This document shows positions 6,358 to 15,936 of a stretch of DNA of 43,926 nt, piece by piece (within the stretch, counting starts at the first letter, position 1; each line of letters starts with the position of its first letter). The notes under the pieces are model-generated. The model was given only the letters and a program-made list of their open reading frames with translations, made no database searches and was not told the DNA's origin. The stretch is from the NCBI GenBank assembly GCA_009841145.1, contig VXMJ01000100.1:1-43926 (forward strand). Reading direction: 5' to 3'. Position numbers and translations under genes: made by a program. This stretch comes from Caldilineaceae bacterium SB0661_bin_34. GTDB taxonomy: Bacteria; Chloroflexota; Anaerolineae; Caldilineales; Caldilineaceae.

Positions 6358-6703
6358 TACAGATGTCGGCTCGGAACTGATGGAGGCCTGCGCGAGACCG
6401 ACGGATGACAATCTGGTGCAGGACGAATCGACCAGGTATCGAGTCAATTCGGCACATGCAGTCCCAACCCAGCCAGCCAATTGCACAACAACGAGGGTTG
6501 CTGCGGGTCTCATAGGATGAAGCAATTCCTATACAGGACATGCTGCAAGACACTGTATACAGTGTTGCTGGTCTGGCCGCGTTGAAGCAGGGTTTGTGGG
6601 TCACGCCACCGTTTCGTTCACAGCCGGATTCGTCCTGCGCGTCTCGGGGGCACCCTATTCGCTGTCCGTCATTGGTTACGATTCTTTCTTGGAGGACATC
6701 CCC
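6358..6703. other. Intergenic region between the sugar operon and the restriction-modification genes
   Basis: These 346 bases hold no convincing gene. They contain the perfect palindrome at 6550-6565 and, at the right end, the ribosome binding site of the methyltransferase (TTGGAGGA, seven bases before the ATG at 6704). Base composition becomes AT-richer here, marking entry into the defence segment. Confidence 0.5.
6550..6565. promoter_or_regulatory. 16-bp perfect palindrome, candidate operator
   Basis: ACACTGTATACAGTGT is an exact palindrome about 140 bases upstream of the methyltransferase start. Its size and two-fold symmetry suit a dimeric HTH repressor. The half CTGTATAC recurs upstream of the small gene at 11113 (11069-11076), but also inside coding sequence near 8048, so the recurrence is weak support. 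No regulator gene is adjacent. Confidence 0.4.
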
Positions 6704-8341
6704 ATGCCTACGCTGGATTTCAAGGGCAAGCAGCACGTCTATGCCCACCACTTGACCGTGCCCTACAGATCACTGGTTCGAGAAGTGGAGCGTTCTGAGG
6801 GGGACGATACAGATGCTGCCGCAGATGGCAACCTCATCATCCACGGAGACAATCTGCACGCGCTGAAAGCGTTGCTGCCCCGCTACGCTGGCAAGGTCAA
6901 CTGCATCTACATTGATCCACTCTACAACACCGGTAACGAGGGGTGGCGCTACAACGACAACGTGAACAGCTCTCTCATGAGGGAATGGCTAGTGGCGAAC
7001 AGTCCGGTGGACGGGGAAGACCTGGAAAGACACGACAAGTGGCTCTGCATGATGTGGCCGCGTTTGCACCTGCTCAGGGAGCTGCTGTCCAACGACGGTG
7101 CGATCTTCGTGTCCATTGACGACCATGAACAGCATCACCTGCGGATGTTGATGGATGAGATTTTTGGAGACGATAATTTTGTTGCCAACATCACTTGGCG
7201 AAAAAAGGCTGGAGGCGGTCAAGACAGTAAATATCTGGCTAGAGAGCACGACTACATTCTGTGTTACCGCAAGAGCCAAGATTTCTCAATAAATTTCCGC
7301 AGTGTCCAAGTTTCGGAGAGTGAGTTCCGAAAGACCAAGAACGGACGCAGATGCAAATTCATCAAACTAGAAAAGTGGGGTTCTGGTGCCTATCGGACTG
7401 ATCGGCCAACGTTGTTCTACCCAATTAAGGATCCAGATGGAAACGACTTTTATCCTCAGGCTCCGAATGGCCAAGAAGGCCGCTGGCGTACCCGTCCAGA
7501 GGCGTTGGATGATGACCACATTTACTGGGAAAAAAGGAATGGCCGCTGGACGCCACATGAAGTAAAGTATTTCGATGAGGCGACCAAGGTTAAAACGATA
7601 AAGGAAAGGACTGTCTTTTATGATATGGGTACAACGACAGACGCGGCAAAAGAACAGAGAATGATTTTTGGCAACAAGGTTCTTGACAACAGCAAACCTG
7701 TGGACTTGATCTACCGGATATTGGCTATTGGTTCACCCAAAGACGGTGTGATTCTCGACTCCTTTGCTGGCAGCGGCACCACCGCACACGCGGTCTTGGC
7801 CCTCAACAGTGAGGATGGCGGAAACCGTAAGTTCATCCTCGTCGAATGTGAAGACTATGCCGACACCATTACCGCGGAGCGCGTGCGACGCGTCATCGAG
7901 GGTGTTCCCAAAGCCAAGGATGACGACATCCTGAAGGAAGGATTGGGCGGCTCGTTTACCTACTGCACTCTTGGAAAGGCTATTGACGTGGAGGAGATGC
8001 TCAACGGGAAGAATCTGCCGGAGTACAGTGAACTGGCATCCTACCTGCTGTATACTGCGTCGGGTCTGTCCTTCGACAAAAGCGAGGGGATGCAGGCGCA
8101 AACCGACGAGGGTTTGTTTTGGAGCGGCGACGACGTTGACTACTACTTGCTTTACCGGCCCGACATCGAGTGGCTGCGCAGCAACGAGGCTCTTCTGAAT
8201 GAAGGGCAAGTCTGGCGCATCAGTGAGCGAGGAAAAAAGGCCGTGGTGTTCGCCGCAGGCAAGCATATGGGCCAGCATTTCCTCACCGACAAAGGTATCA
8301 CCTTCTGCCAGATACCCTACGAAATGCATCGATTGGGTTAA
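6704..8341 (+). CDS. Type III restriction-modification system methyltransferase (Mod), beta-class N6-adenine
   Basis: A 545-residue DNA methyltransferase. The catalytic motif comes first, as DPLYNTGNE at Asp71-Tyr74 (a DPLY variant of DPPY). The S-adenosylmethionine-binding FAGSGTT motif lies near residue 354. That order defines the beta class used by type III Mod subunits. The region between is the target-recognition part and is visibly AT-richer. I chose the ATG at 6704 because GGAGG sits seven bases upstream and the protein then begins MPTLDFKGKQHVYAHH, a familiar start for these enzymes; upstream in-frame ATGs lack a binding site. The Res partner starts eight bases after the stop, so the pair is an operon. 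Mod protects and directs the complex by methylating one strand of an asymmetric site. The recognition sequence cannot be deduced. Confidence 0.9.
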   Translation: MPTLDFKGKQHVYAHHLTVPYRSLVREVERSEGDDTDAAADGNLIIHGDNLHALKALLPRYAGKVNCIYIDPLYNTGNEGWRYNDNVNSSLMREWLVANSPVDGEDLERHDKWLCMMWPRLHLLRELLSNDGAIFVSIDDHEQHHLRMLMDEIFGDDNFVANITWRKKAGGGQDSKYLAREHDYILCYRKSQDFSINFRSVQVSESEFRKTKNGRRCKFIKLEKWGSGAYRTDRPTLFYPIKDPDGNDFYPQAPNGQEGRWRTRPEALDDDHIYWEKRNGRWTPHEVKYFDEATKVKTIKERTVFYDMGTTTDAAKEQRMIFGNKVLDNSKPVDLIYRILAIGSPKDGVILDSFAGSGTTAHAVLALNSEDGGNRKFILVECEDYADTITAERVRRVIEGVPKAKDDDILKEGLGGSFTYCTLGKAIDVEEMLNGKNLPEYSELASYLLYTASGLSFDKSEGMQAQTDEGLFWSGDDVDYYLLYRPDIEWLRSNEALLNEGQVWRISERGKKAVVFAAGKHMGQHFLTDKGITFCQIPYEMHRLG

Positions 8342-8349
8342 GGAGGCGG

Positions 8350-10896
8350 ATGATGGAACTGAAGGAGTACCAGACGCGCGCCCTGGAGGCGTTCGTCCGC
8401 TGGTTGGATGTACTTGCCAGCAAGCAGACCGAACTGGAAGCCGCCAAAGCTGCCTTGCAGAGCATTGGGCAAGATGTTTCTGTGGACACTCTCAACGACA
8501 ACTATCCCAAGTTGGCGTGGAAGCAGTTGGCGGATGTAGGCGAGGTAGCAGACAGTGCCGGACCCTATGTCGAACGTACTTCCACTAGCGGAAATCCTAT
8601 ACCCCATGTTTGCTTCAAGGTGCCCACCGGCGGGGGTAAGACGCTGCTAGCTGCCGCAGCACTGGAACGTCTAAACCGTCCAACCGGCTTGGTTCTGTGG
8701 ATGGTGCCCAGCAGAGCAATTTACCGTCAGACCAAACAGGCTTTGTGGAACCGGGAGCACCCTTACCGCCACATGCTGGAGCGCGCCAGTGGCGGGCGTG
8801 TCAAGATGCTGGAAAAGGATGATCCTTTCAACACTGCCGACGTTGAAAACTACCTTTGTGTGATGCTCATTTCCTTGCAGTCGGCTAACCTCGGGACCAA
8901 AGATTACCGCCGTATGTTCCGGGATTCCGGGCGCTATACGTCCTTCTTTCCCGACAACGATGATGATCGTGGCGACGCGAGACTGCGTTGCAGGTTTCCC
9001 GATCTTGCCCTATCGGATGATGAGCATCCAGTGACTCAAAGCCTCGTCAATGTGTTCAAAATGCAGCGTCCTGTTATCGTACTAGATGAGGCCCACAAGG
9101 CCTATGGGAAACAGGTAAAAGATGAATTCGTGCGCTCTATCAACTACCTCAACCCCAGCTTGGTAATTGAACTGTCTGCTACGCCGAGTCGCCGCAAAAG
9201 CAATCTGCTTGTGGACATATCTGGCGTTGACCTGAAATCTGAAGAGATGATCAAACTGCCCGTGGAGATAACGTCCTTCACTGACGTGGAATGGCAACAT
9301 ACGCTGGGCGCAGCCCATGCCCAACTCGAGGCACTTGACAACGAAGCTCTCTCGTTGGATCATCAAGAAGGACGCTACATCCGTCCTATCGCGGTGGTGC
9401 GAGTGGAGCACACCGGCAGCGCACAGATTGGTCGAGATACCGTTCATGCCGAGGACGCACGGGCATACCTCACGCAGAACTTGGGTGTCCCTGCAGCAGC
9501 AGTAAGGGTCAAATCGTCAGAAAACGATGAGTTGGGTGCCGAGGACTTGCTGGACAAGGCTTCGCCCGTCCGCTGGATTATTACTCGTGACGCACTGCGC
9601 GAAGGTTGGGATTGTTCATTCGCCTACTTGCTGGTGCTGTTGGACAACACCAAGGCTAAGACCGCCATTACACAACTTGTAGGCCGGGTGATGCGACAAC
9701 CCGAAGCTCGACGAACTGGACGGGAGACTCTGGATCGATGTTATGTCTATTGCCAGAACATGGATGTCAACGCTGCCGTGCAGTACGTCAAGATTGGGTT
9801 GGAGCAAGAAGGGATGACGGGCCTTGAAGACGACATTCAGAGCAAGGACGAGCCCAGCCAAAGGCTGGTCAAGGTCCAACCTCGTCAGATGTTCCGCGAT
9901 GACGCCATCTTTCTGCCCAAAGTATTGCACAAAGACAGGAGGGAAGGCTGGGTGGAGCTGGATTACCAGCGGCACATTGCGTCTTCACTGGAGTGGGTGA
10001 GTATAGGTGCCCCCGACCTGCAAATTAGCATGACACAGGGACCGCAGGAGACCAAGGCAAGTGTTGATCTAGCGATGACGACTGTTCCGACGGTGTACGA
10101 TGACCCTCGGGCTCTGTGCATCGACACCGACGTGAAAATAGCTTGGTACGCCCGTCGCATCTCCCATGTGATACCCAATCCCTTCCACGCGGCGCATATC
10201 GCACAACAGATGGTACAACAGATGCACGATGCGGGGTTTGACAGTGAAGCCATTTATGGACAGCGTTCATCTCTGGCTGATCAACTGCGCCAGCATGTGG
10301 TAAAGGAGGCTGACCGTCTGGCCGAACAGATCTTTCGTGCCAAGTTGGCCAAAGGCCAGATACGCTTCGACCTGGAAACCGGCGATCGGAACTACCGTAT
10401 ACGTGAAAGCTACGAGATACCAGTTGGCGAAGGCGACAACCTATTGCAACGTTATGGACAACAAATACAATTGAGTCTCTTTGAGCCGGTGTTTGAAAAG
10501 GGTTACAATGATCTGGAGCGCAGATTTGCATTTTATCTGGATCAGCAGAAGGCATTGCAGTGGTGGCACCGAGTGGCTGTCCGACAGCATGGTGAGTACT
10601 ACCTGCGGGGCTGGCGGAATGAACGCATCTGGCCTGACTTCGTGGCAATGGCATGTGAAACCGACAGCAAGCCCAGTGTGCTGGTATTTGAAACCAAAGG
10701 TGACCATTTGAAGGATGCCGACGACACCAAGTACAAGAAGAAGGTGTTTGAGGCCCTTGAGAAGGCGTTCAACGTTGGTAAAATGACTGTCCATGCCGGC
10801 TTGGCCGAGGGTGTGTTTCGCTTGGTGTTTGACAAAGAAGGGTTTCCCGACGCGGAAGAGGCTATCACCTACCTCTACGACGGACGCGCAAGGTAG
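8350..10896 (+). CDS. Type III restriction enzyme Res subunit (SF2 helicase plus PD-(D/E)XK nuclease)
   Basis: An 848-residue protein. Helicase motif I is VPTGGGKT (residues 91-98), motif II DEAH (246-249), motif III SATPSR, and motif VI QLVGRVMRQP (from 442) with arginines 446 and 449. The C-terminal nuclease shows Asp763 (WPDF) and E781-T-K783, the expected D...ExK. It translocates or scans DNA with ATP and cuts when two unmodified sites are engaged, in complex with Mod. A full AGGAGG lies just before the tandem ATG-ATG at 8350/8353; the second ATG has better spacing, so the true start may be one codon later. All active-site motifs look intact, so the system is probably functional. Confidence 0.9.
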   Translation: MMELKEYQTRALEAFVRWLDVLASKQTELEAAKAALQSIGQDVSVDTLNDNYPKLAWKQLADVGEVADSAGPYVERTSTSGNPIPHVCFKVPTGGGKTLLAAAALERLNRPTGLVLWMVPSRAIYRQTKQALWNREHPYRHMLERASGGRVKMLEKDDPFNTADVENYLCVMLISLQSANLGTKDYRRMFRDSGRYTSFFPDNDDDRGDARLRCRFPDLALSDDEHPVTQSLVNVFKMQRPVIVLDEAHKAYGKQVKDEFVRSINYLNPSLVIELSATPSRRKSNLLVDISGVDLKSEEMIKLPVEITSFTDVEWQHTLGAAHAQLEALDNEALSLDHQEGRYIRPIAVVRVEHTGSAQIGRDTVHAEDARAYLTQNLGVPAAAVRVKSSENDELGAEDLLDKASPVRWIITRDALREGWDCSFAYLLVLLDNTKAKTAITQLVGRVMRQPEARRTGRETLDRCYVYCQNMDVNAAVQYVKIGLEQEGMTGLEDDIQSKDEPSQRLVKVQPRQMFRDDAIFLPKVLHKDRREGWVELDYQRHIASSLEWVSIGAPDLQISMTQGPQETKASVDLAMTTVPTVYDDPRALCIDTDVKIAWYARRISHVIPNPFHAAHIAQQMVQQMHDAGFDSEAIYGQRSSLADQLRQHVVKEADRLAEQIFRAKLAKGQIRFDLETGDRNYRIRESYEIPVGEGDNLLQRYGQQIQLSLFEPVFEKGYNDLERRFAFYLDQQKALQWWHRVAVRQHGEYYLRGWRNERIWPDFVAMACETDSKPSVLVFETKGDHLKDADDTKYKKKVFEALEKAFNVGKMTVHAGLAEGVFRLVFDKEGFPDAEEAITYLYDGRAR

Positions 10897-11112
10897 ATGA
10901 CTCTGTACAGGAAAAGGTTCAGAGTTTAGGATGTCCGGCGTGGATCCTAGAAGTCCAATTGAAAGGGGATTATAGCCAATAGTGGGCAGAATGAAATTGC
11001 CCCTTAATCGAGGGTGTTTGATTGTAATAGTCAGATTTTGAAGGATTACAGCCTGAATCTAGAATATGCTGTATACTGCACTTCTGAGTCCCAAGCATGA
11101 GGCAGACGGTCA

Positions 11113-11427
11113 ATGAGCGTACAAAACCGATGGGAAACGAGCCCAGGACCCTTGGACCCGCATGCGGTCAAGTTGCGGCGCGCCATTGTAAACAAGACAA
11201 GCGTGGGTTCCATTGAACCCGACAAGGATTACCCGGAGCACACGGTTCTCGTGTTCTTGGATTCTTCGGTAGTCGCCGGTTCTCCAGTTGTGATCAAGCA
11301 AGCATCAGAGGCTCTGGGGCCTCGCGAACCGTTGGTGCTTCGCCCCGCAGATGCGCAACAACTCGCCCGGTCCCTGCTAGCACACGTGGAGGAACTGGAG
11401 AGGGACGCCGAAGATGCCCCTGTGTGA
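11113..11427 (+). CDS. Small protein of unknown function beside the restriction-modification operon
   Basis: A 104-residue acidic protein starting MSVQNRWETSPG. I do not recognise a family. The middle (YPEHTVLVFLDSSVVAGSPVV) looks like one or two beta strands, and the C-terminus (AQQLARSLLAHVEELERDAE) is an amphipathic helix. A GAGG lies about ten bases before the ATG, and a terminator-like hairpin follows 33 bases after the stop, both supporting a real single-gene unit. It sits 216 bases downstream of Res on the same strand, between two defence modules. It could be an accessory or regulatory protein of the island, but that is only position-based. Confidence 0.45.
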   Translation: MSVQNRWETSPGPLDPHAVKLRRAIVNKTSVGSIEPDKDYPEHTVLVFLDSSVVAGSPVVIKQASEALGPREPLVLRPADAQQLARSLLAHVEELERDAEDAPV

Positions 11428-11460
11428 CAATCCCGGTTCTGCCACCCAGAAACCGAGGAA

Positions 11461-11480
11461 CCCCGGCCGCATGGTCGGGG
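11461..11480 (+). terminator. Rho-independent-like terminator
   Basis: CCCCGGCC-GCAT-GGTCGGGG forms an eight-pair stem (one G-T pair) with a four-base loop, followed by the T-rich TCTCGTTCTT. It stands 33 bases after the stop of the 11113-11427 gene. Confidence 0.6.
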
Positions 11481-11739
11481 TCTCGTTCTTGGGTAGGCCC
11501 CTATGTATCTGGTTGGGGTAAGTGCAGAGTTGAGCGTCTCCGGCTGCCGATGCGCGGATCAACAGCCCAGCACTTGTCCCTTGGCTGTTGATCCGCGTTT
11601 CTGTACCGTGGGTCCGCGCAACAGCAAAGCCAGTGCCTTTCGGGCTGGAAGCCGACGCTGTGGAAGGTGCTGCAGCGCATCCAAGTCAGACTCAGAGGAA
11701 TAGTCCACGCCTACCTCCGAAAGAACTCTTAGGTTGTGG

Positions 11740-12091
11740 CCTGCTCGCGAACCACCATGATTGGAATACTTGAGTGTCAGCGGGTAGGGCCTGCCGGATC
11801 CAGCGCCAGTAGCACAGTCGCCGCACCCGTACCAGGTCGGCCTGCCATGCCTTCAGGATGGGCTCAAGGGCCTCCTGCTTGGCCTGAAGGAAGGGATAGA
11901 CCTGCCCTTCGACCGCCCTGCAACTCCAGAAAAAGGCGCTCAACCGGATTCAGTTCGGGGGAATAGCGCATTCGCACCACCCAGGCCGCGTCCACGGCCT
12001 GCATCACCTCGTCCGTGTGGCCGCCGGCCCCGCCCCAGACCCAGCCGTTGATGGCCGGCTCTTGCGCCCAAGCTCCCCAGATGCGGACCAT
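11740..12091 (-). pseudogene. IS630-family transposase, C-terminal remnant with frameshift
   Basis: The minus strand reads RYSPELNPVERLFLELQ, the final DDE glutamate region of an IS630-like transposase, then loses frame near 11930. A different frame continues the same domain (RAVEGQVYPFLQAKQEALE, then VRRLCYWRWIRQAL). The N-terminal HTH and the first catalytic aspartates are missing. The remnant starts only about ten bases from the stop codon of the RloC-like gene. It is a dead insertion-sequence fragment of a different IS630 lineage from the copy at 14804-15493. Confidence 0.65.
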
Positions 12092-12101
12092 CTCCTCATA
12101 G

Positions 12102-14420
12102 TTACGGGCGAGCCAAAGACAAAGCCCGTTCTACAAATCCCACTAGTTCAGCTGGGGAGATACGTTCAGCTTGCCATGCAGGATTAGTGTCGTGGTGGAA
12201 ACGGTTAGCATATTCCAAGACATTATCCAATTCCACAATAGTTGCACTATCGATAACTTCATCTGTTTGACCGCTGTGTTTTCTGCACTTTTCAATGAAC
12301 TTACCGATACCAAATTTCCTGCCAGGAGGAAATTGACCAGGACATGCTACTCGATAGTAACCTTCCAAGTAAAAGCGAATTGCACGGGCAACTTCCTTTT
12401 CGTTGCCCGATTGATCATCAACGTATCCTTGAAGGAGACGATATTGTTGATCATGCTCTGTGATCGCGTCCCGAGAAGCGTCCCAACTTCGAATTGTAGA
12501 TTCATTCCCATTTGGCGCGATTTCCAAAGTAGCATAATCCTCATTGCCAATCATCCCGTCCAAAATACCACAAAGGAACCGCTTGTTGTGTGACAACACA
12601 ATGGTTTGTTTTGTCCGACGTGCCAAGTCTCTTACAGTTTGTACAGTAGCCAATGAGCGGTGATCATCCAAGCTGGCCATTGGATCATCTATCACTGCCA
12701 CTGTCTTGTCAAGATTGGGATTACGGTCTAAAGAGGAAAAGAACAGCGCAAGAGCCAATGTGTTTCGGTCGCCAGCACTGAGCGAGTTTCGAAACGATGG
12801 TTTGCCAGGAGGGTTCCTGTTGCCCTTTACAGCGATTGGTTCATCATTGATTATCACATTGTAAGTGCAAGAAGATCCTGAACCCCTTCCAATATTGGAA
12901 GGGGTTAAGTTTCCAACACAAAAGCCTGCATTGAACCGTTTGAGATAAGCATTTACTCCACTTTGCAACTCAGGGAAGACGTTATTTCGATATTCTTCTA
13001 ATTCTGCCCTGACTTCATCCCGTGCCTTTTCTGTAATGTCTTTGGCCTTCAACTCTTCCATGTAGTCATCGCACAAAAGAACAATGTTCTCTTGGAAACG
13101 GGATTTTGTTGCCTTCAGTCTATTTAATGTATCGATGATTTGGCGAGTGTCAGCTGTGCCCGCCTTTTGTTTCACTCTTTTTATCTCTTTATTGGCATGC
13201 AACAGTGTTTCATTAATTTTCTCTATGTCTTGCATATGGGCAACATACGTATTGAGTGCATCGATAGTAGATTGGTTTAAGGCCTGCGGTTCGAGGGGGG
13301 CAGACTGTTTTGCAGCCAGCTGCTGGGCAACCATTTCTCGCGCTGTGTTCCAATCATTTATGATAGCATTTGTATCAACATTGATGGTTGGTACATTGCA
13401 GTAGCTGGACCAAAACCGCAAGGCTTGTGCTAGTGTGCTGACTGAACGCTCGAATTCCAATTGCTTTCTGCTTGCATGGTTGCGGTTGATGTCATTGAGC
13501 AAACGGGTAACCGTTTTCTTCAAGTACGTATATTCTTGACTAAAATACGCTCGGTAGTGCAAAATCAAGTCGATGGCCTCAATGTCTTGGCCACAGAATG
13601 GGCATCGGTATTCATCTTGGTGGGCAACTCTATTCATACCATCAGCGACCCAAGGTTCTCCACCTTCTCCGAGAGTCTGTATATGTGCCTGAACTTGGGT
13701 TTCTGCAGAGTCATCCAGATCAGATAAGCCTGTCAACAGTGCGTTTTCAATCTCTTCTCTCTCAAAATTGGGAAGTTCGATACTTGCCAACAGTGGTTCG
13801 TTGTGTACGGATGCGTGGTCTTGTGCAGCTTGTAAATTGCGCTCCACTGTGGATATCTTGTTGTCTAATTTAGATTGATTAGTTAGAGCACAATACTCAT
13901 CAACTGACAGACCAAATCGGAGACTTTCAGGTATAGCATTGGCTTTCTCGGTTTTAGCCGTGTTGTGTTCTTCAACGCGGTTGACGAGAGCTTGCAATTT
14001 GCGGTTGAGAGCGACACCTTGATCACCAAGAATTAATTCATGAAGATTCTGTCGATGTCGGGCGTCTACGTCTAACCCTGAATATACATTTTCATCGATG
14101 AAGTTGTCGTTGAATACTTTGAGATCAGTTAGGTTGAAATTCCATGCATCGTTTTCGAATATCATTTTTGTTGATTTGTCTGTTGGTTCGTTTTGCCAAC
14201 TCAGCACTGCGTGAGCAGGGTGCTGGGATCCAAGCCGATGTCTTTCGATTATCGGTAATGGATCGCCACTCGCAAGGGAGCGCAAGACCGCGGTGAGAGT
14301 TGTCTTGCCTTGAGCATTGTCTGCGTAAAGCAAAGATAATTTGCTCAGTGGATGATGTTTACCAGGGTTAACTGATCTGAACCTGCCAATGTTTCTTAGT
14401 AAGTCAATTTGTGTGAACAT
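12102..14420 (-). CDS. RloC/PrrC-like ABC ATPase with candidate anticodon-nuclease domain
   Basis: A 772-residue AAA_13-type protein. An ABC head is split by a long helical insertion. Walker A is ADNAQGKTT (33-41), the signature is LSAGD (547-551), Walker B is VIDDP with Asp578-Asp579, and the H-loop is LSHNKRF. The insertion carries a zinc-hook-like CPFC (Cys273, Cys276), as known for RloC. The C-terminal part has RFYLE, an R-x-x-x-E at Arg682/Glu686, and a later His pair (742-743). This resembles the Arg-Glu-His triad of PrrC/RloC anticodon nucleases, which cut tRNA when restriction is disarmed or DNA is damaged. I chose the ATG at 14420 because AGGA lies upstream and conserved sequence starts there; the open frame extends to 14870 with no homology. 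The gene is much AT-richer than the sugar operons and lies between IS remnants, suggesting acquisition by transfer. The nuclease assignment is inference. Confidence 0.75.
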   Translation of the reverse strand: MFTQIDLLRNIGRFRSVNPGKHHPLSKLSLLYADNAQGKTTLTAVLRSLASGDPLPIIERHRLGSQHPAHAVLSWQNEPTDKSTKMIFENDAWNFNLTDLKVFNDNFIDENVYSGLDVDARHRQNLHELILGDQGVALNRKLQALVNRVEEHNTAKTEKANAIPESLRFGLSVDEYCALTNQSKLDNKISTVERNLQAAQDHASVHNEPLLASIELPNFEREEIENALLTGLSDLDDSAETQVQAHIQTLGEGGEPWVADGMNRVAHQDEYRCPFCGQDIEAIDLILHYRAYFSQEYTYLKKTVTRLLNDINRNHASRKQLEFERSVSTLAQALRFWSSYCNVPTINVDTNAIINDWNTAREMVAQQLAAKQSAPLEPQALNQSTIDALNTYVAHMQDIEKINETLLHANKEIKRVKQKAGTADTRQIIDTLNRLKATKSRFQENIVLLCDDYMEELKAKDITEKARDEVRAELEEYRNNVFPELQSGVNAYLKRFNAGFCVGNLTPSNIGRGSGSSCTYNVIINDEPIAVKGNRNPPGKPSFRNSLSAGDRNTLALALFFSSLDRNPNLDKTVAVIDDPMASLDDHRSLATVQTVRDLARRTKQTIVLSHNKRFLCGILDGMIGNEDYATLEIAPNGNESTIRSWDASRDAITEHDQQYRLLQGYVDDQSGNEKEVARAIRFYLEGYYRVACPGQFPPGRKFGIGKFIEKCRKHSGQTDEVIDSATIVELDNVLEYANRFHHDTNPAWQAERISPAELVGFVERALSLARP

Positions 14421-14803
14421 GTAAATCCTGACTGTTGGTTCGAGGGGTGCTGATTGAAACGTGTGGCCTCCTGCTTCAGAGTGTCCGAAACCTGTGGCCA
14501 ATCTGCGACAGCCGTCATTGGAGAAATTTGGTTCGTCTCGGCTGAAGTCTGAAGAAGGGTTAACGTTTCGATGGGGCGTGTGATCTGGCCCGGCTGCAAA
14601 GCGTTGGTTAAACGTCTCGGCTGATTGTGCTACGTTACATTGTATGTTGTCAAGACAACGTTCGGTTTGGTGGGGTAGATCGCGTTCGATTGGCAGTATC
14701 CTGAGCGAAGTCCCCTGGTGGCAAGCGGGATGTCCCCGCTGGTAGCTTCTTCGGTGGTTGTCTACTGACGGGGCAAGTTTGGACCAAGTGTCCCAGTTAG
14801 GGC
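14421..14803. other. Non-coding stretch upstream of the RloC-like gene
   Basis: The ATPase frame stays open leftwards from 14870, but residues coded here look random (rich in H, P, T, Q) and carry no domain. An inverted repeat GTTGTC-AA-GACAAC (14646-14659) includes a minus-strand TTGACA, though no good -10 follows at normal spacing. The right side probably holds the lost 5' part of the IS630 element. Confidence 0.4.
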
Positions 14804-15493
14804 ATGTGGTGGGTGTCGTGGCCGGTGGCCGCGGCTCATGGCCTTCTGAATGGGGAGGTCCAAGTGCCATCTGAAGCGGGCCTCCTATCCCCCGAAGCTA
14901 CGTTCGGCCTGTACCTGAAACGGATGGGAACCCAGTGGTGGCGCACGCTGGCTGAAAATAAGTTCCAGGACGCGCAGTTGGACCTCTTCTGCCTCGACGA
15001 AGCCGGTTTTTGCCCCTCCCTGCCGCCCACTTACACCTAGGCCCTGGCCGGTGTGCGCCTGGTCGTCCCCTGCGAGAACTCCTAGGGTCGGCGCGTGAAC
15101 GTCCTGGCCGCCCGCGCTGTGCCCGGCACCCACCGGCACACACCCCTGACCTAGCGGACGGCGTCCCGTCCCTGGAAGAGGGAGCATATCCTCGGCTGCC
15201 TGCGCCACGCCCTGCCCGGACGCGCAGGCACCCAACGCATCGTGGTCCTCGACAACGCCTCCTGCCACTACTCCCGAACGGTGCGGCAGGCCCGGCGGGA
15301 GCTGGCGAAGCAAGGGATCTGGCTGTTGTACCTGCCGGCCTGCAGTCCGGAGTTGAACGACATCGAACGTACCTTCCGCACCGTTAAGCACGGGGCCATG
15401 CCCCAGCGCACCTTCACGACCATCAAGACGCTGACGACGGCCGTGGAGGCGGCCTTCGACCAGGTCAACGCCCAGCTGTTACCTTCAGAGTAA
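14804..15493 (+). pseudogene. IS630-family transposase, 5'-truncated and interrupted by three in-frame TAG codons
   Basis: One reading frame from 14804 to the TAA at 15491 carries all three catalytic DDE elements of an IS630 transposase: LDEAGF, VVLDNASCHYS, and SPELNDIERTF. It is broken only by TAG at 15038, 15083 and 15152. At the first, the family has Trp (TYT-W-ALAG). At the second, Gln is expected (CENS-Q-GRR). The N-terminal HTH is mostly missing; only the end (YLKRMG) is present. I treat it as a pseudogene made by point mutation. Terminal inverted repeats were not identified. Confidence 0.75.
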
Positions 15494-15936
15494 GTCATGC
15501 GGAATGTTTAGGCACCTCTGATTCTGGCCGCCTTACGGTGTTGGATGACTCGATGGGTTGTGCCACACTTAGCCAGTGCCTACCATGTCCGCTCCGTCCC
15601 TCTCCGACCGTCTGGCTCTCATCGCCGCCGGTCCCTCCCTGGTCGGCTATCCAGTCGTGGCAAGGCTGGTGGTGGGCGAACTGGAAACTGAGTTCGGAAA
15701 TCAAACTTCGAAGACGGGTTCATTGTTATCCATATATCCGTGACGGAGCCATCAGATATGTCATGCGTACTGGCTATTGATCCATCTGGTGAATCGGCCA
15801 TTAGGATGGACGGTTGAGATCATGAATGGATGAGCGTAAGGTCGCAACCGTCCCATCGGACCAATATTTGCGAGAAGGTGAAGGATTTCTTGGGACACTA
15901 TCTTTCCTTTCAAAACCCTTGAACTCGCATTGACAC
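15494..15936. other. Intergenic region without a supported gene
   Basis: These 443 bases separate the IS630 remnant from the 3' end of the sulfatase gene. Short open frames on both strands give low-complexity translations without start signals. I saw no terminator with a U-tract and no clear right inverted repeat of the insertion sequence. Confidence 0.4.

Follow-up and report, generated by a model that had tools for sequence, protein, structure and literature searches.

An RloC-like ATPase with a predicted HEPN nuclease domain, probably acting without a dedicated restriction partner, near type III restriction genes

Two families of ABC ATPase with R-x3-E and H nuclease residues, PrrC and RloC, have been described as tied to type IC restriction systems and as rarely restriction-linked, respectively. 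The published RloC pattern is R-X3-E-X36-52-H, and G. kaustophilus RloC loses its activity when R692, E696 or H737 is mutated (PMC2610378). Davidov and Kaufmann (2008; PMC2610378) counted 8 RloC genes with type I or III linkage among 73, with a type III case named, and described an RloC in a transposon next to an hsdR relic. Klaiman et al. (PMC3874168) reported that RloC is rarely linked to restriction-modification (R-M), that A. baylyi RloC works without R-M, and that DNA breaks activate RloC even in R-M mutants. RloC-like genes were also placed in R-M neighbourhoods in a survey of HEPN domains (PMC3710099).

We analysed a stretch of 43,926 nucleotides (the window), for which the original prediction had proposed a zinc-hook ABC ATPase with R682-x-x-x-E686 and His742/743 at 12102-14420 and a type III pair about 1.2 kb away on the other strand. 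We found an intact ORF of 772 aa on the minus strand (12102..14420), running from an ATG at 14420 to a stop codon at 12102. A longer ORF-caller version, reaching 14870, is an unlikely 5' extension because homologues begin at M1. Pfam identified the protein as AAA_13 (9e-37), and the best PADLOC match was to PDC-S06 (model PDLC04895, E 2e-69, residues 1-690); PrrC matched weakly, via the ATPase part only. The ATPase motifs were all found on the minus strand: a P-loop, ADNAQGKTT, with its first G replaced by A (residues 33-41; 14298..14324; N35, G38 and K39 invariant in the 92 family members described below), an ABC signature, LSAGDR with core LSAGD at 547-551 (residues 547-552; 12765..12782; S548 and D551 invariant), a Walker B / D-loop region reading IDDPMASLD at 577-585 (residues 574-585; 12666..12701; D578, D579 and D585 invariant), and H611 as the His switch. 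The zinc-hook CPFC (residues 273-276; 13593..13604, minus strand) aligned with the CxFC of RloC-type AAA_13 proteins; C276 was kept in 92/92 and C273 in 91/92, and the hook is predicted to bind zinc.

The family alignment comprised 92 full-length proteins, namely that of the window and homologues with 22-50% identity, taken from plasmids and from genome or viral contigs. R682 (codon 12375..12377), E686 (12363..12365) and H743 (12192..12194, all minus strand) were identical in all 92, which shows that R682-x3-E686 and H743 are not chance occurrences; beyond residue 620 they were the only fully invariant positions. The first two aligned with the R and E of RloC-type proteins. The predicted histidine pair was likewise present, but H742, kept in 89/92, is not fully invariant, and H743 is therefore likely to be the catalytic residue of the two. 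The E-to-H spacing was 56 in the window protein (E686 to H743) and 51-56 across the family, and the histidine pair reads HH, where in RloC the His often has a Ser before it. No conserved arginine was found 5-7 residues before H743 in the 92 proteins, so the family departs from the HEPN Rx4-6H motif; some other HEPN families likewise have no such arginine.

Distribution of the family was sporadic, with plasmids and viral contigs among the carriers. A full-length homologue occurred in just 1 of 60 relatives (54% identity), and none was found in the phage collection searched. Seven of about 101 homologues look broken by a frameshift or early stop (L009, L037, L051, L055, L056, L059, L068), which might fit the expectation for a toxic gene, assembly errors being an alternative. 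We also noted that a more distant relative sits in a larger island (L061, 4519-21126), together with genes of 1242 and 521 aa and a large methyltransferase-like gene overlapping its end.

Profiles were used to relate the family to RloC and PrrC, the RloC reference being RloC-type AAA_13 proteins found by the Pfam model, which stood in for the experimentally studied proteins of G. kaustophilus and A. baylyi. The RloC-type proteins (n=11) kept a CXXC hook preceded by WVxxG, R-x3-E and SH, and the aligned PrrC proteins (n=12) kept R-x3-E, with SH in nearly all. The family matched the RloC-type profile with E 3.5e-51, starting at residue 1 and with R682-x3-E686 in register; the histidine was without confident alignment. 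RloC-type and PrrC profiles matched each other with E 8e-17, spanning R-x3-E and SH. When the HEPN part was compared by itself, hhalign gave chance level against that of PrrC (probability 0.5%), and the probability against the RloC-type counterpart was 59%, over the first half only. Judged from these profiles, the tie of the family to PrrC passes via RloC-type proteins.

We then considered the fold. The C-terminal domain (residues 653-772; 12105..12464, minus strand), modelled alone, gave pLDDT 93.6. VIA-align, run on Foldseek candidates, returned HEPN AF0298 (2hsb) as the top structural neighbour (Z 10.2, 2.7 A over 106 residues), then sacsin HEPN (Z 9.6) and Csm6' (Z 9.0), and HEPN domains filled most of the top rows (Z 7-10), values that for helical bundles are not conclusive by themselves. 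Foldseek with the HEPN model gave no match at E 0.001, and searches of PDB sequences, by phmmer with the whole protein or with a profile of the HEPN part, gave SMC/RecF heads and noise only. In the model the triad sites lie in helix 2 and just past helix 3, as expected of HEPN nucleases. Since HEPN entries dominate the top rows and the triad placement fits, a HEPN fold is a reasonable assignment for this predicted RNase domain, and the expectation of a nuclease-like C-terminus was borne out by the model. The full-length model (pLDDT 90.5) has a head of SMC/Rad50 type (VIA Z 21-23) and long helices at 120-161, 284-314 and 383-495 around the hook, the CPFC itself being modelled with low confidence.

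A head closest to SMC, Rad50 and RecF would also suit a DNA-repair or chromosome ATPase of the RecN/SbcC kind without nuclease function. We consider this highly improbable, given the invariant triad within a HEPN fold, the sporadic distribution and the carriage on plasmids and viral contigs. A different possibility is that the HEPN RNase answers to the same DNA-end trigger and cuts RNA other than tRNA anticodons, such as mRNA, rRNA or other tRNA sites. The RNAs targeted by HEPN domains are diverse (PMC3710099), and the spacing, HH for SH and the lack of an Rx4-6H arginine set this domain apart from RloC; the R-x3-E and H residues that G. kaustophilus RloC requires to cleave tRNA (PMC2610378) are nevertheless strictly kept, and we regard another target as unlikely.

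The type III pair was confirmed by PADLOC on the plus strand. Mod, the DNA methyltransferase, spans 6596..8341 with a probable start at 6704 (MTase_III 2e-161), and Res, the helicase-nuclease, spans 8350..10896 (REase_III 4e-197) and contains DEAH and PD..ETK. Motif IV of Mod (residues 107-110) reads DPLY, against DPPY in three sampled relatives; weakening or decay of the methyltransferase is possible, and its activity is uncertain. A second Res-like gene (38% identity) was seen in the same genome (G000:C76:46143-48599, L124). The res gene and the RloC-like gene are convergent, with stop codons 1.2 kb apart. Between them lie a 104-aa ORF (11113-11427), without a convincing match in Pfam, PADLOC or NCBIfam, and the 3' remnant of a multicopy IS630-like element (11752..12097, minus strand; assigned by reading the translated remnant) with 78-81% matches to several copies in its own genome. 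This remnant ends 4 nt past the stop codon of the RloC-like gene, and the longest matches to genome copies stop at 12097. On the other side of the gene is a decayed DDE_3 transposase remnant with in-frame stops (14898..15515, plus strand; Pfam DDE_3 2.3e-14 at 15242-15493).

The type III pair, the RloC-like gene and the transposon remnants lie in a variable insert (about 6380..15935) between GH127 and sulfatase genes, whose flanks are syntenic in same-genus genomes and whose cargo differs. In one genome (G002) the same site is occupied by 2.9 kb containing a PIN/Phd pair, a transposase and an MmeI-like gene that is broken, and another (G003) has a TIR-domain NTPase on the sulfatase side; neither mod/res nor the RloC-like gene was found in the three same-genus genomes. 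Such a variable defence site can explain the juxtaposition with mod/res without functional pairing. The GC content was 0.445 for the RloC-like gene (0.415 at third positions), 0.524 for mod, 0.541 for res and about 0.60-0.62 for host genes, and on sequence grounds the RloC-like gene is horizontally acquired. Joint arrival of the three genes is not favoured; the difference in base composition and the intervening IS remnant argue for separate acquisition. The same features weigh against a dedicated guard in the manner of PrrC, which this Mod/Res would keep silent until a phage factor disabled type III restriction. The presence of type III genes 1.2 kb away would suit such a guard, whereas the convergent orientation, the separation by about 1.2 kb that includes an IS remnant, and the differing composition would not.

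Evidence from the wider family bears on the same question. We counted neighbours in 52 close-clade loci left after removal of near-copies at 80% identity. A restriction gene lay within 3 kb in 20/52 (17/49 without L003, L005 and L006, whose proteins served as search references, so that these loci count by construction) and within 150 bp in 12/52. Restriction genes were about 20-fold denser beside the gene (0.150 per kb at 0-1.5 kb) than at 7-9.5 kb (0.007 per kb), so the neighbourhoods are not random; general clustering of defence genes accounts for part of this pattern. Among the sampled neighbours, PADLOC confirmed type I systems at L011, L017, L018, L023 and L091, type II at L014 and L015, and type III at L055, L057, L059, L080 and L092. 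At L091 the gene sits between hsdS and hsdR and overlaps both. At L092, L057 and L080 the gene comes directly after type III genes, 3, 24 and 37 nt away respectively, an arrangement that would favour a dedicated guard. Against one, the nearest homologue (L105, 54%) had no restriction gene in its flanks (about 10 kb on one side and 2.4 kb on the other). Restriction classes, labelled by a mix of PADLOC-checked and HMM-only calls, were scattered on the tree, with 20 changes for four labels, and the type III label needed 5 changes for 5 rows, i.e. it fell in 5 separate places. Activity of A. baylyi RloC without R-M (PMC3874168) points the same way. We therefore find a guard dedicated to this Mod/Res quite unlikely, and a functional link to the pair is possible and not favoured.

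The family, then, tends to adjoin restriction systems of every class (I, II and III), and the original proposal of a functional pair with mod/res does not fit a family that adjoins all three alike and whose nearest homologue adjoins none. Nor does the type III neighbour depart from known guards, as had been suggested: linkage of RloC to type I or III systems, reported in 2008, and RloC-like genes in R-M neighbourhoods are already published, so a type III neighbour is not new for RloC. What we add is the frequency and the class mix in this subfamily. It is possible, and we offer the idea tentatively, that the subfamily is a plug-in guard for any restriction class, able to pair interchangeably with types I, II and III because it senses the DNA ends that all of them make or leave, and that it then blocks translation through a HEPN site with a distinct arrangement.

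The reading that we favour, and consider probable, is that of a stand-alone RloC-like abortive-defence protein with no dedicated type III partner, in which sensing of DNA ends leads to tRNA cleavage by the HEPN domain. The Rad50-like ABC head and zinc-hook coiled coil would detect DNA in an abnormal state, the likeliest being ends produced by restriction or damage. An ATP-dependent rearrangement would then free the C-terminal HEPN RNase (R682, E686, H743), which would cut tRNA and so stop translation. In this scheme we infer the RNase activity, the tRNA substrate, the DNA-end trigger and the defence phenotype; architecture, motifs, conservation, RloC-type homology, neighbourhood enrichment and variable site are read from sequence, and the fold from a model. 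The guard would have been acquired apart from mod/res. Whether such guards sense restriction products or one particular enzyme can be tested directly with a subfamily found next to all three restriction classes, several times within one operon.

Compared with known systems, the protein shares its head-domain fold with Rad50, SMC and RecF, which are without a HEPN domain. PDC-S06, its best PADLOC match, is a candidate defence family for which the library gives no mechanism. The window protein resembles PrrC in combining an ABC ATPase with R-x3-E and H nuclease residues and in its restriction linkage. PrrC is, however, about 370 aa long (341-416), has no hook or coiled coil, is linked to type IC systems and keeps the Rx6H arginine, whereas the window protein has 772 aa and a hook, and type III rather than type I genes nearby. 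The closest likeness is to RloC of G. kaustophilus and A. baylyi, with a Rad50-like ABC head whose ATPase is split by a coiled coil bearing a CXXC hook, the full set of ABC motifs (Walker A/B, signature, His switch), a C-proximal R-x3-E...H, a size within the 658-897 aa of RloC, a mobile distribution and occasional type I/III linkage. It differs from RloC in its E-to-H spacing (56 against 36-52) and in HH for SH, and the family lies beside restriction genes, type II included, far more often. Because the spacing and HH depart from RloC, we file the protein, on its alignments, as RloC-like and as a member of a sister group to RloC, and not as RloC proper.
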